In this document: piece by piece, positions 54,171 to 57,839 of the stretch
Position numbering within the stretch: the first letter of the stretch is position 1
How the letters are laid out: every line of letters begins with the position of its first letter
From: Nitrospira sp.
GTDB taxonomy: Bacteria > Nitrospirota > Nitrospiria > Nitrospirales > Nitrospiraceae
DNA length: 64,000 nt
Assembly (NCBI GenBank): GCA_016873435.1
Contig: VGXF01000003.1
Location: forward strand, 1 to 64,000
Direction of reading: 5' to 3'
Notes under the pieces: model-generated
Told to the model about the DNA's origin: nothing
Databases searched by the model: none
What the model saw: only the letters and a program-made list of their open reading frames with translations
Position numbers and translations under genes: made by a program

Positions 54171-55166
54171 TCAGCCTCCGAGTTCTTCCAATACTGCTGC
54201 GGCCAGCAGCGGCACCATGATCTCGTGGTGGCCGACGAGCGAATAGCCCTTGCCACCTTTCTGGGTCGGACGCTTCACCACGTTCGTCAGCGGCCGGTAG
54301 TGGGGCAGAAAATCCATGTTCACCGTCGTGAGGTCCGCCAGCGCGTGGCCCAGATTACGTCCCAGCGTGACGGTTTTCAAGAACACTTCAGGCATGATGA
54401 CATTGGAGCCAAGGTTGATGTAGACCCCGCCTTCCATCTGCGACACGACGGCGGCAAGGCGGCGAAAATCGAGCAGCGACGCCGCGCCGATGGACGCACC
54501 GTCGGCCGACGGGTGCATGTGGATGATATCTGTTCCTAATGCGACGTGCACGGTCACAGGGATGCCCAGCCGCGCGCCGGTGGCGAGCAGGCTGTATGCC
54601 CGGTTGGGAAACTGCCCCTGATAGCGGTTGATGTAATGACCGACCGCTTCGCCGAGTCCCCAGCCTTCCTTTGCGCCGCGCGTGATCGCGTCGTTGAGCA
54701 TGCGGCCGGTTTCCTCCGCCATACCGAAGCGGCCGTCGTCGATCTCGGCGTCCACGTCCTCAGACGTGTGGCCCATCAGCGCGAGTTCAAAATCGTGGAT
54801 AACAACGGCGCCGTTCATCGCCACGGCGGTGACGATACCACGCTCGATCAAATCAACGAGAATCGGGTTCAAGCCGACCTTCGTCGGATGGGCGCCCATG
54901 CCAACAATCACCGGCTTGCCGCGCTTATTCGCCTTTGCGATGGCCTGCGCCACCGCACGCAGGTTTTTGACGGCGAGGATGTCGGGGAGATTCTTCAGGA
55001 ACGAACGGAGCGAGTCACCTCGCCGCCACGGCGAGGCAAAATCCGACAGCCGCACCTTGCTGTGCCGGCGGCCCAGCGAGTAGGTTTTCAATTTCGACAC
55101 GTCGATTGGCGGCAGGGCCGTGCGCGGAAGCACGGGGGGGCGGAGTCTTTTAACGGACTTTTTCAA
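54171..55166 (-). CDS. Deoxyhypusine-synthase-like NAD-dependent protein
   Basis: About 331 residues of the DHS superfamily: RGKPVIVGMGAHPTKVGLNP, NGAVVIHDFELALMG, GTDIIHMHP and NVIMPEVFLKTV. True DHS forms an imine on a Lys in a GGGVxKH motif; here the equivalent is GGVYINLGSN, so that Lys is missing. Bacteria have no eIF5A, and bacterial relatives include homospermidine synthase, which keeps the Lys. The reaction is therefore unknown. The start is unsure: the ATG at 55199 overlaps gmhA by 50 bases; TTG at 55166 and GTG at 55133 are alternatives. Confidence 0.8.
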   Translation of the reverse strand: MKKSVKRLRPPVLPRTALPPIDVSKLKTYSLGRRHSKVRLSDFASPWRRGDSLRSFLKNLPDILAVKNLRAVAQAIAKANKRGKPVIVGMGAHPTKVGLNPILVDLIERGIVTAVAMNGAVVIHDFELALMGHTSEDVDAEIDDGRFGMAEETGRMLNDAITRGAKEGWGLGEAVGHYINRYQGQFPNRAYSLLATGARLGIPVTVHVALGTDIIHMHPSADGASIGAASLLDFRRLAAVVSQMEGGVYINLGSNVIMPEVFLKTVTLGRNLGHALADLTTVNMDFLPHYRPLTNVVKRPTQKGGKGYSLVGHHEIMVPLLAAAVLEELGG

Positions 55167-55728
55167 ACAGTTCGCTCTCGATGAGTTCACAGAGGACATG
55201 ACCCAGCGTGATGTGACTTTCCTGAATACGCGCGGTCACCGTTGAGGGCACGATAAACGCCTGGTCCACCATTCCGGCCAGCTTGCCGCCCGTGCCGCCC
55301 GTCCAGCCGATCGTGATGAGGCCCCCGGCTTTCGCTGCCGCAACACCCTTGAGCACGTTGGGCGAATTTCCGCTGGTGCTGATGGCGATGGCGATATCGC
55401 CCTTCTGGCCGTGAGCGGTCACCTGACGCGCAAACAGTTCCTCGTAGCCGTAGTCGTTGGCGATGCAGGTGACGGCCGCCGGATCGCACCCAAGCGCGAT
55501 GGCCGGGAGCGGCGTGCGGTCTTTGTGATAGCGGCCGACGAATTCCGCTGCGAGATGCGAAGCATCGGTGGCGCTGCCGCCGTTGCCGAACAGGAGAATC
55601 TTGCGGCCCTCTTTAAGGGCGCGGGCGATGAGGGGAACCACGTGGGAGATTTTGTCCGCGTGGTCACGAACAAACTTACGTTTGACCTCGGCGCTATCGT
55701 CAAACGCTTTGATCGCACGATCGTTCAT
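55150..55728 (-). CDS. gmhA: Phosphoheptose isomerase (SIS domain)
   Basis: 192 residues with the SIS fold: LFGNGGSATDASHLAAEFVG and ISTSGNSPNVLKG. The pattern and length fit GmhA, which turns sedoheptulose 7-phosphate into D-glycero-D-manno-heptose 7-phosphate, the first step to ADP-heptose; DiaA is a paralogue that is hard to exclude by eye. rfaE2 nearby supports GmhA. It is the first gene of the run with the DHS-like, SprT-like and dinB genes, and its end overlaps the DHS-like frame. Confidence 0.9.
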   Translation of the reverse strand: MNDRAIKAFDDSAEVKRKFVRDHADKISHVVPLIARALKEGRKILLFGNGGSATDASHLAAEFVGRYHKDRTPLPAIALGCDPAAVTCIANDYGYEELFARQVTAHGQKGDIAIAISTSGNSPNVLKGVAAAKAGGLITIGWTGGTGGKLAGMVDQAFIVPSTVTARIQESHITLGHVLCELIESELFEKVR

Positions 55729-55980
55729 GGAGTAACTCGATTGTAGGGAACCGCGCGCGAACTGTCAAACTGCGTTCCCTGCCTTCGCGGGGCTTCGGCG
55801 GCGGGTCCGTTGAAATGAACGGGATGCTGCAGCCGCAGGCGCGCTGTGCGGCACTTCGCAGCGGGTGGTGCTTCGTGCTTTTGCCGGTCAGGCTCATGGT
55901 CAACGCGGTCATTTCTGTGCCGGCCACCATCCATTTTTCAGCAAGAGCCAGTCCCGCCCGCCCATCGTCCACCGCGTGTG

Positions 55981-56005: not shown

Positions 56006-56095
56006 AGACTGGTGTCTATGAACAGCCGCCAAGGGAAAGCATCCGGGCACCGGTTCGTTGAACGCCTGTTGCCCCGATGCTATAGTCCGCGCGGT

Positions 56096-57352
56096 ATGGC
56101 GGCCGAACAACCGGTTAAAGCATTGCTTGTGGCGTTGACCAATGACGCGCCGGCCACGGTGTATGTCATCAACCGGCTCAAGCCGGAGTTGCTCTGCATC
56201 TTCGGCCCCGAATCCGCTCAACCCCTCGTTGAGTCGTCCGTGCAGCCGAAGATCGAGCAGATGGTGCGCAAGTGGGATTGGATTGTGACGCCGAATGTGG
56301 CGCGCTTCATGTCATCGTATCAGGCGGTCGCGCGCGCACTACCCGAGATGATGAAAACCTGGGAGGTACAGCCGGGAGAGCTGGTCGTGGATCTGACCGA
56401 CGCCACGCCCGCGATGGCCGCGGCGCTGTCGCTGGCGGCGCTACCCTTCACCTCGCGCGTGGTGGCGATCGGAGACACAGCGGGCCCTGACGATGACCCT
56501 GTTATTCTTGAGGGACGGAGCAGAGCCTGGCTGCAGGGCAATCCGTGGGATACCGCGGCGACCCAATTGCGCCGCGAGGCCTGCGACCATTTCAACCGAG
56601 GTTCCTTCGTAGCGGCGCAGGGGCTGTTCCGTCAAATTGAAGCGCGTGTGAGCGGCGGGCAGAAACCGATGTACCGGGCCTTCGCTGATCTGGCGGAAGG
56701 CTATGGCTTGTGGGAACGATTCCAGTACCGGCAGACGTGGGACAAGCTCAAGACTGCGCACAAGGCGCTGGAGATGGTCTCCGTCTGGGGCGGGCCGGCC
56801 GGGTTGAAAAGCCTGCTGACAGTCGTCAAGCAGAACACTGGGTTTCTGGAAAAACTTGTGCTGGATCCTGGTGCGGTGAAGGAAATGCAGCCGCTGGACC
56901 TGGTCGCGCACGCCCGGCGCCGCGCGGAAGTCGAACACGACTATGAGGCAGCCCTGGTTGCGCTCGTGCGGGCACTGGAAGCCTTTGCGCAGGTTCACCT
57001 GTTCAAATCGTACAACATCAAAACGTGGGATGTGCAGCCGGAGCAATTGCCGGAAGCGTTGCGCGAGACCTGCCGGACCTGCTTCCTAAGCGATCTCGAC
57101 GGAAAATATAAATTGCCGTTACACGATCAGTTCCGCGCGCTGGCCGGACTCGGCAGCCCGGCGGGCCAGGCATATCTGGCACAGTGGCCGAAGATGAAGC
57201 CGTTGCTCGACGCGGCCAACCACGCGGTGCTTGGCCATGGCTTCGAGCCGGTTAAACCGGAACGGTTCCAGCAGCTCCAGGACATTGTCATCAAGCTCAC
57301 GGGCATCAATGACAGCTCGCTGCCGATGTTTCCGGGGATTAATCTTTCGTGA
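56096..57352 (+). CDS. Cas02710-family (Csm6-related) CARF/HEPN-type protein, solitary
   Basis: 418 residues resembling the CRISPR-associated TIGR02710/PF09670 family. The N-terminal CARF-like half has VVDLTDATPAMAAAL (97-111), where usual members read VDxTGGTKxM, followed by GNPWD (148-152). The C-terminal half is helical with EHDYEAALVALVRALEAFAQ (280-299) and NHAVLGHGF (375-383), the place of the HEPN Rx4-6H RNase motif; the Arg appears to be Ala374. Relatives bind cyclic oligoadenylate and cut RNA. No cas10, other cas gene or CRISPR array is in the window. ATG at 56096 is used; the upstream frame looks noncoding. Confidence 0.75.
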   Translation: MAAEQPVKALLVALTNDAPATVYVINRLKPELLCIFGPESAQPLVESSVQPKIEQMVRKWDWIVTPNVARFMSSYQAVARALPEMMKTWEVQPGELVVDLTDATPAMAAALSLAALPFTSRVVAIGDTAGPDDDPVILEGRSRAWLQGNPWDTAATQLRREACDHFNRGSFVAAQGLFRQIEARVSGGQKPMYRAFADLAEGYGLWERFQYRQTWDKLKTAHKALEMVSVWGGPAGLKSLLTVVKQNTGFLEKLVLDPGAVKEMQPLDLVAHARRRAEVEHDYEAALVALVRALEAFAQVHLFKSYNIKTWDVQPEQLPEALRETCRTCFLSDLDGKYKLPLHDQFRALAGLGSPAGQAYLAQWPKMKPLLDAANHAVLGHGFEPVKPERFQQLQDIVIKLTGINDSSLPMFPGINLS

Positions 57353-57452: not shown

Positions 57453-57839
57453 GTGGACGTAAGGATTTTTTATGAAGACACGGATTGCGGTGGCGTGGTG
57501 TACTATGCAAATTATCTAAAGTATTTTGAACGGGCGCGGACGGACTATCTTGAGCAGCGCGGACTCTCGGTGCCGCAACTGGCCAAGGACGGAACAATCT
57601 TCATGGTTATCCGGGCTGAGCTCGACTACAAATCCCCGGCACGACTGGGCGAGACGCTCGCAATCGAGACGACCTTTTCGGACAACGGCAAGGCGGCGTT
57701 CCTGTTTTCGCACGTGATCAGGGAAAAACTCAGTGGGCGCGTGATCGTGGAAGGCTCGGCCACGCTGGTGGTCACGTCGCCGGACAACAAGGTCAAACGG
57801 GCGGATCCGGAGCTGCTCGCGAAGCTAAAGGTCCGCTGA
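57453..57839 (+). CDS. ybgC: YbgC-type acyl-CoA thioesterase
   Basis: 128 residues from GTG at 57453, hot-dog fold. The signature is YEDTDCGGVVYYANYLKYFE with the catalytic Asp; RLGETLAIETTF follows. YbgC hydrolyses short or medium acyl-CoA and is usually linked to the tol-pal genes; these are not in this window. AAGGGG lies upstream of the start. A tiny membrane protein gene follows 13 bases later. Confidence 0.92.
   Translation: MDVRIFYEDTDCGGVVYYANYLKYFERARTDYLEQRGLSVPQLAKDGTIFMVIRAELDYKSPARLGETLAIETTFSDNGKAAFLFSHVIREKLSGRVIVEGSATLVVTSPDNKVKRADPELLAKLKVR

Follow-up and report, generated by a model that had tools for sequence, protein, structure and literature searches.

Gene order and protein architecture at the locus

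The window, the whole 64-kb stretch of Nitrospira sp. DNA analyzed here, contains at positions 56096 to 57352 (+ strand) an open reading frame coding for a 418-aa protein, with an ATG at 56096, a final codon ending at 57349, and a stop codon at 57350 to 57352. The protein is organized as an N-terminal Rossmann-like CARF domain (residues 1 to 148; 56096 to 56539, +), recognizable from the coverage of the TIGR02710 match and from its tabulated motifs, a Csm6_6H helical domain (56570 to 56848, +) with a VSGG-K signature conserved at about residues 185 to 190, and a HEPN domain (56897 to 57301, +). The initial annotation had proposed a solitary Cas02710-family CARF-HEPN protein, and profile searches agree, with scores above the curated cut-offs for Pfam Cas_Cas02710 HEPN (PF09670; 3.3e-20, 72.8 bits, cut-off 27), Pfam Csm6_6H (PF22205; 7.8e-11, 42.4 bits, cut-off 27.6), and NCBIfam TIGR02710 (6.4e-40, 137.3 bits, equivalog cut-off 83.9), as well as a match of 699 bits (4.1e-211) to the PADLOC model PDLC01812 (CARF1--CARF_HEPN). 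A phmmer search of the PDB with the window protein alone gave no match; the family profile A1 matched Thermus thermophilus Csm6 structures (2.4e-6 to 5.6e-6). An AlphaFold model from the single sequence (pLDDT 42) was discarded, and a model from 16 sequences, usable for the 6H-HEPN part only, has Csm6 structures as its best fold matches (7.9e-11), with low query-normalized TM-scores (0.41 to 0.46) as expected given the poorly modelled CARF part, where confidence is too low for a reshaped ligand pocket to be judged. With its CARF-6H-HEPN architecture and these scores, the protein is a member of the Csm6/Cas02710/TIGR02710 family by descent, albeit one with inactivated signature motifs, as discussed below.

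Domain matches confirm the flanking genes as named previously: a divergently transcribed gmhA coding for a SIS-domain phosphoheptose isomerase (55150 to 55728, −) and a codirectional downstream ybgC-type 4HBT thioesterase gene (57453 to 57839, +). Adjoining gmhA is a gene for a 342-aa protein (54171 to 55199, −) that is conserved across the order and has sub-threshold matches only, to deoxyhypusine synthase (DHS) and ArgZ-like domains. Elsewhere in the window there is a tmRNA gene (2383 to 2729, +) with the tag peptide ANQELALAA.

An extended −10 element, TGC-TATAGT (56078 to 56086, +), lies 9 nt before the ATG, and a −35-like element, TTGAAC (56058 to 56063, +), is positioned 17 nt 5′ of the −10 hexamer. 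The extended −10 TG is present in all 75 distinct upstream regions of the gene and the exact TATAGT in 72, with a spacing of 8 to 9 nt from the start codon in 71, and no Shine-Dalgarno-like 4-mer was found in any of the 75; the −35-like element (TTGATC or TTGAAC) occurs in many relatives yet is weakly conserved overall. Because the extended −10 sits so close to the start codon, the CARF mRNA is predicted to be leaderless or nearly so. A −10-like hexamer 5 to 12 nt upstream is present for the CARF gene in 74/75 regions and for gmhA in 19/51 loci (6 to 11 nt before the start, at about 55729 to 55760 in the window), and is nearly absent from other neighboring genes; the gmhA hexamers hint that leaderless genes may be widespread in Nitrospirales.

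Distribution in Nitrospirales and independence from CRISPR loci

A protein search identifies the gene in 92 of 98 Nitrospiraceae genomes, including 77 of the 80 good ones and all 22 genera, with 54 to 77% identity for full-length copies, and a profile search of the sister family (f2) finds it in 44/49 genomes (31 of the 34 good ones). It is mostly single-copy in Nitrospirales, and the closest named relatives of the protein are in Nitrospira and other Nitrospirae/Nitrospirota records. The gmhA/ybgC setting is kept across both families, in which the DHS-like gene and gmhA are transcribed away from the CARF gene and ybgC. Seven genomes without the gene were checked, and in five the DHS-like neighbor is missing too, as would be expected if most absences were assembly gaps; in the other two the conserved site is genuinely altered, by a deletion in G064 and, in G289, with a set of genes read as restriction-modification after gmhA, and neither genome has a ybgC match. 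No virus-borne copies were found in one scan of IMG/VR. The gene behaves as a vertically inherited core gene of the order, in keeping with the earlier suggestion of a housekeeping gene derived from a family of CRISPR ancillary effectors.

The CARF gene and ybgC are neighbors, fewer than 30 nt apart in the sister family, and G064 and G289 have neither at the conserved site. An obligate partnership was considered and dropped, as genome G050 retains the CARF gene but has no match for ybgC, and the pair is often interrupted by a gene for a 23S_rRNA_IVP four-helix protein (PF05635). This IVP gene is present in 47 of 100 Nitrospirales loci, a set that includes some duplicates of one genome; its patchy occurrence among close relatives (an example is L041:9275-9664) suggests a mobile cassette that uses a single site. 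In Nitrospira defluvii, genes for Band_7/SPFH and NfeD proteins (L041:6461-7867) separate gmhA from the CARF gene.

The absence of a CRISPR locus nearby, noted initially for the window, extends to the whole genome (1.72 Mb, 98.5% complete), in which profile searches find no cas1 or cas10 match, and there is no regular array-like repeat in the 64 kb; the Cas10 that accompanies Csm6 in a type III locus or genome is therefore missing. Relatives are similar, with Cas10 (PF22335) in only 4/98 Nitrospiraceae genomes, two of them with strong matches (G002 and G011), and in 7/49 genomes of the sister family; Cas1 is present in 37/98 Nitrospiraceae genomes. G002 and G011 also code for separate, divergent CARF-HEPN proteins about 5 to 12 kb from Cas10, which are 25 to 30% identical to the core protein and have the motif Lys and Arg intact. 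Extra CARF-HEPN copies with intact motifs are present in three Nitrospirales genomes (L115:265-1635, L116:6168-7460, and L120:7385-8746); a neighbor of the first matches the PADLOC candidate defence family PDC-S01, and the tested neighbors of the other two match no cas model.

Residues lost and residues gained

Residue counts compare 76 distinct Nitrospirales sequences (62 Nitrospiraceae and 14 from the sister family) with 13 others, namely, four from f19, a family in another class of the phylum, and nine other, CRISPR-type copies. In the HEPN domain, the canonical R-N-x-S-x-L-A-H is degenerate in the window protein (A374-N375-H376-A377-V378-L379-G380-H381; 57215 to 57238, +), the 'NHAVLGHG' stretch to which the initial annotation had pointed. 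The replacement of Arg by Ala described there is real and order-wide, with position 374 being non-Arg in 76/76 Nitrospirales sequences (A in 73, otherwise V, S, or T) versus Arg in 4/4 f19 and 9/9 other copies, so that the R-X4-6-H catalytic motif of Csm6 is lost. At the Ser position of RNxS there is A, G, or S, and LGH has taken the place of LAH, position 380 being Gly in 76/76 Nitrospirales sequences versus Ala in 13/13 comparison copies. All but one of the Nitrospiraceae sequences (61/62) have His381, the exception coming from a MAG and being truncated, whereas 6/14 sister-family sequences have Q, Y, or N instead, in two genera in which the gene is nonetheless conserved. Asn375 is retained in 41/62 Nitrospiraceae sequences, and Glu295 is invariant in the profile A1 alignment and conserved in Nitrospiraceae. 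In having a HEPN fold with the catalytic motif lost, the protein also resembles the inactive HEPN proteins.

The CARF domain has changed correspondingly. Its motif II remnant, D99-L-T-D-A-T-P-A-M107 (56390 to 56416, +; canonical D-x-T-G-G-T-K-x-M), has DATP where GGTK is expected, as previously remarked, and P105 aligns with K137 of T. thermophilus Csm6 (TtCsm6). This Lys is lost in 76/76 Nitrospirales sequences, which have P (65), A, S, T, or V at position 105 and never the R/K of the (D/N)-X-(S/T)-X3-(R/K) motif, and is present in 13/13 others; Ala has replaced the second Gly of motif II in 73/76. Motif I, GG(S/T)PEP, is absent from Nitrospirales, where the residues at about positions 15 to 18 vary and are of the T(D/N)D type. 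The motif I and II residues with which ring nucleases (Crn1-like or self-limiting Csm6) bind and cleave cA4 are thus gone, and most genomes lack Cas10; the ring-nuclease-like role entertained initially is not supported.

In TtCsm6, each of the single substitutions R415A, N416A, and H422A abolishes RNase activity (PMC10897365, PMC4748810), and K137A does away with both cA4 binding and activation of the RNase (PMC10897365). By analogy with these mutants, the Nitrospirales copies would lack both RNase activity and cA4 binding. Leftover or altered chemistry is unlikely, since loss of Arg, Asn, or His alone is sufficient to kill the TtCsm6 RNase, even with His381 and Glu295 still conserved in Nitrospiraceae.

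The gene is under purifying selection, with a median pairwise dN/dS of 0.17 (CARF, 0.27; 6H, 0.105; HEPN, 0.13), a value from pairs that are not independent. A new set of residues is invariant in 76/76 Nitrospirales sequences (W60, D61, P191, K262, Q345, and G380) or nearly so (W62, W311, R327, and C326, in 74 to 75 of 76); these order-specific residues do not occur in f19 and are seldom, if ever, found in other copies. Nitrospirales form a clade with 100/100 support on a long stem (0.89), and group with f19 (100/98) apart from other copies. The f19 proteins are likewise solitary and outside cas loci, with motifs intact, two of the genes being located between a NAD-kinase-like gene and rho, a third beside rho, and a fourth elsewhere (neighbor names are from reading of the translations); the rho-adjacent genes are at L108:4977-6224, L109:7070-8317, and L110:4963-6150. 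Cas10 matches are present in 8/10 f19 genomes, with four over the cut-off, and these solitary copies may serve type III signalling in trans. On a tree rooted with a chosen outgroup, a choice on which the order of events depends, we infer that relocation came before disarming, and that disarming followed loss of the source of cyclic oligoadenylate (cOA).

Interpretation and relationship to known systems

The favored reading, to which we assign a probability of about 0.72, is that the gene codes for a domesticated, catalytically dead Csm6-like dimer acting as a noncatalytic regulator that binds RNA or a ligand. A CARF-HEPN ribonuclease of type III CRISPR would have moved out of its cas locus and become fixed as a single-copy chromosomal gene in the Nitrospirales ancestor. 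Both trigger and blade would have been lost, the former by an end to the binding of cyclic oligoadenylate by CARF motifs I and II and the latter with the R-N-x-S...H active site of HEPN, while the fold was retained and other residues became invariant. Less surely, the protein would still form a Csm6-like dimer, be expressed as a leaderless mRNA from the extended −10 promoter, and work without catalysis as a regulator, most likely with RNA in the HEPN-6H cleft, or with another partner or ligand. This evolutionary fate is well supported, and domestication as a pseudo-effector is very probable; the molecular job is inferred. The fuller proposal, of a CARF-HEPN dimer that reads a new ligand or RNA as a noncatalytic housekeeping regulator and whose gene is on a conserved leaderless promoter, is only slightly favored, and a role specifically as an RNA-binding regulator, by analogy with inactive HEPN domains, is an appreciable but tentative possibility. 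HEPN domains without the conserved charged and polar residues have been argued to be nucleic acid binders (Anantharaman et al. 2013, PMC3710099).

Other explanations fit the data less well. The CARF domain could sense a different small molecule, for example, a nucleotide or nucleotide-sugar tied to the heptose genes gmhA and rfaE2, with the dead HEPN domain serving for output or dimerization; gmhA is adjacent across the order, many Nitrospiraceae loci have rfaE2 close by, and W60, D61, and W62 of the CARF domain are conserved specifically in this order. However, gmhA is transcribed divergently, constraint on the protein is weakest in the CARF domain, and the motif I positions are variable, and this explanation is rather unlikely. 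Still less probable is a stand-alone enzyme, active as an RNase or as an abortive-infection effector, with a different trigger and altered catalytic residues (His381, Glu295, and another base), as has been proposed for some HEPN families without the canonical ones (PMC3710099). Although conservation of His381 and Glu295 and, in part, of Asn375 in Nitrospiraceae would be consistent with such an enzyme, the Arg is lost in every copy, the corresponding single mutants of TtCsm6 are dead, two sister-family genera conserve the gene without the His, and vertical, order-wide inheritance with fixed synteny is unlike that of defence genes. Finally, despite a family match above curated cut-offs, it is highly improbable that the protein is a ring nuclease or serves a distant Cas10 in trans as a type III effector, since Cas10 is far rarer than the gene itself (4 versus 92 of 98 genomes), the two genomes with strong Cas10 matches have their own divergent and intact CARF-HEPN proteins, and motifs I and II, without which cA4 is neither bound nor cleaved, have been lost.

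CARF-HEPN proteins are usually taken to be CRISPR immune effectors, and the Nitrospirales copies are classed as such by PADLOC, which groups them as CARF_HEPN (PDLC01812), and by NCBIfam, which covers them as CRISPR-associated. That much is already known; what appears to be new, in the literature searched, is an order-wide, CRISPR-independent, and disarmed core gene, CARF or Csm6 being linked with Nitrospira there in passing mentions only. With the gene core, solitary, and disarmed in one order, automated defence annotation is misleading there, and attention is drawn to an unstudied core protein of environmentally important nitrite oxidizers (Nitrospira). If the domestication reading is true, an immune second-messenger effector has turned into a near-universal cellular gene, and together with f19 there is a possible stepwise record from cas-linked, through solitary and intact, to solitary and disarmed.

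Several known proteins offer partial parallels. RtcR (PMC7790460) is a transcription activator of an RNA repair operon with a divergent CARF domain and is a precedent for such a domain in cellular RNA biology, with a different architecture. MtlR-type and other inactive HEPN proteins (PMC3710099) share a HEPN fold with the RNase motif lost and are proposed to be RNA-binding regulators, and are described without CARF or 6H domains. The solitary f19 proteins (L108 to L111) are closer, with 39% full-length identity, shared NPWD and VSGG-K motifs, and a location outside cas loci; unlike the Nitrospirales proteins, they keep a GG/ESPEP-type motif I, TGGTK (CGTK in one), and RNxSxLAHG, in genomes mostly with Cas10 matches. 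The prototype remains Csm6 of T. thermophilus (PDB 5fsh, 8jbb, and 8jh1), with which the Nitrospirales protein shares the CARF-6H-HEPN order and length, Pfam, NCBIfam, and PADLOC matches over cut-off, the best structural match, and aligned motif positions. It differs from Csm6 in the replacement of the HEPN Arg and Ser, the CARF motif I GG(S/T), and the motif II Lys, and its gene is an order-wide core gene outside any cas locus, with new invariant residues and a predicted leaderless promoter.
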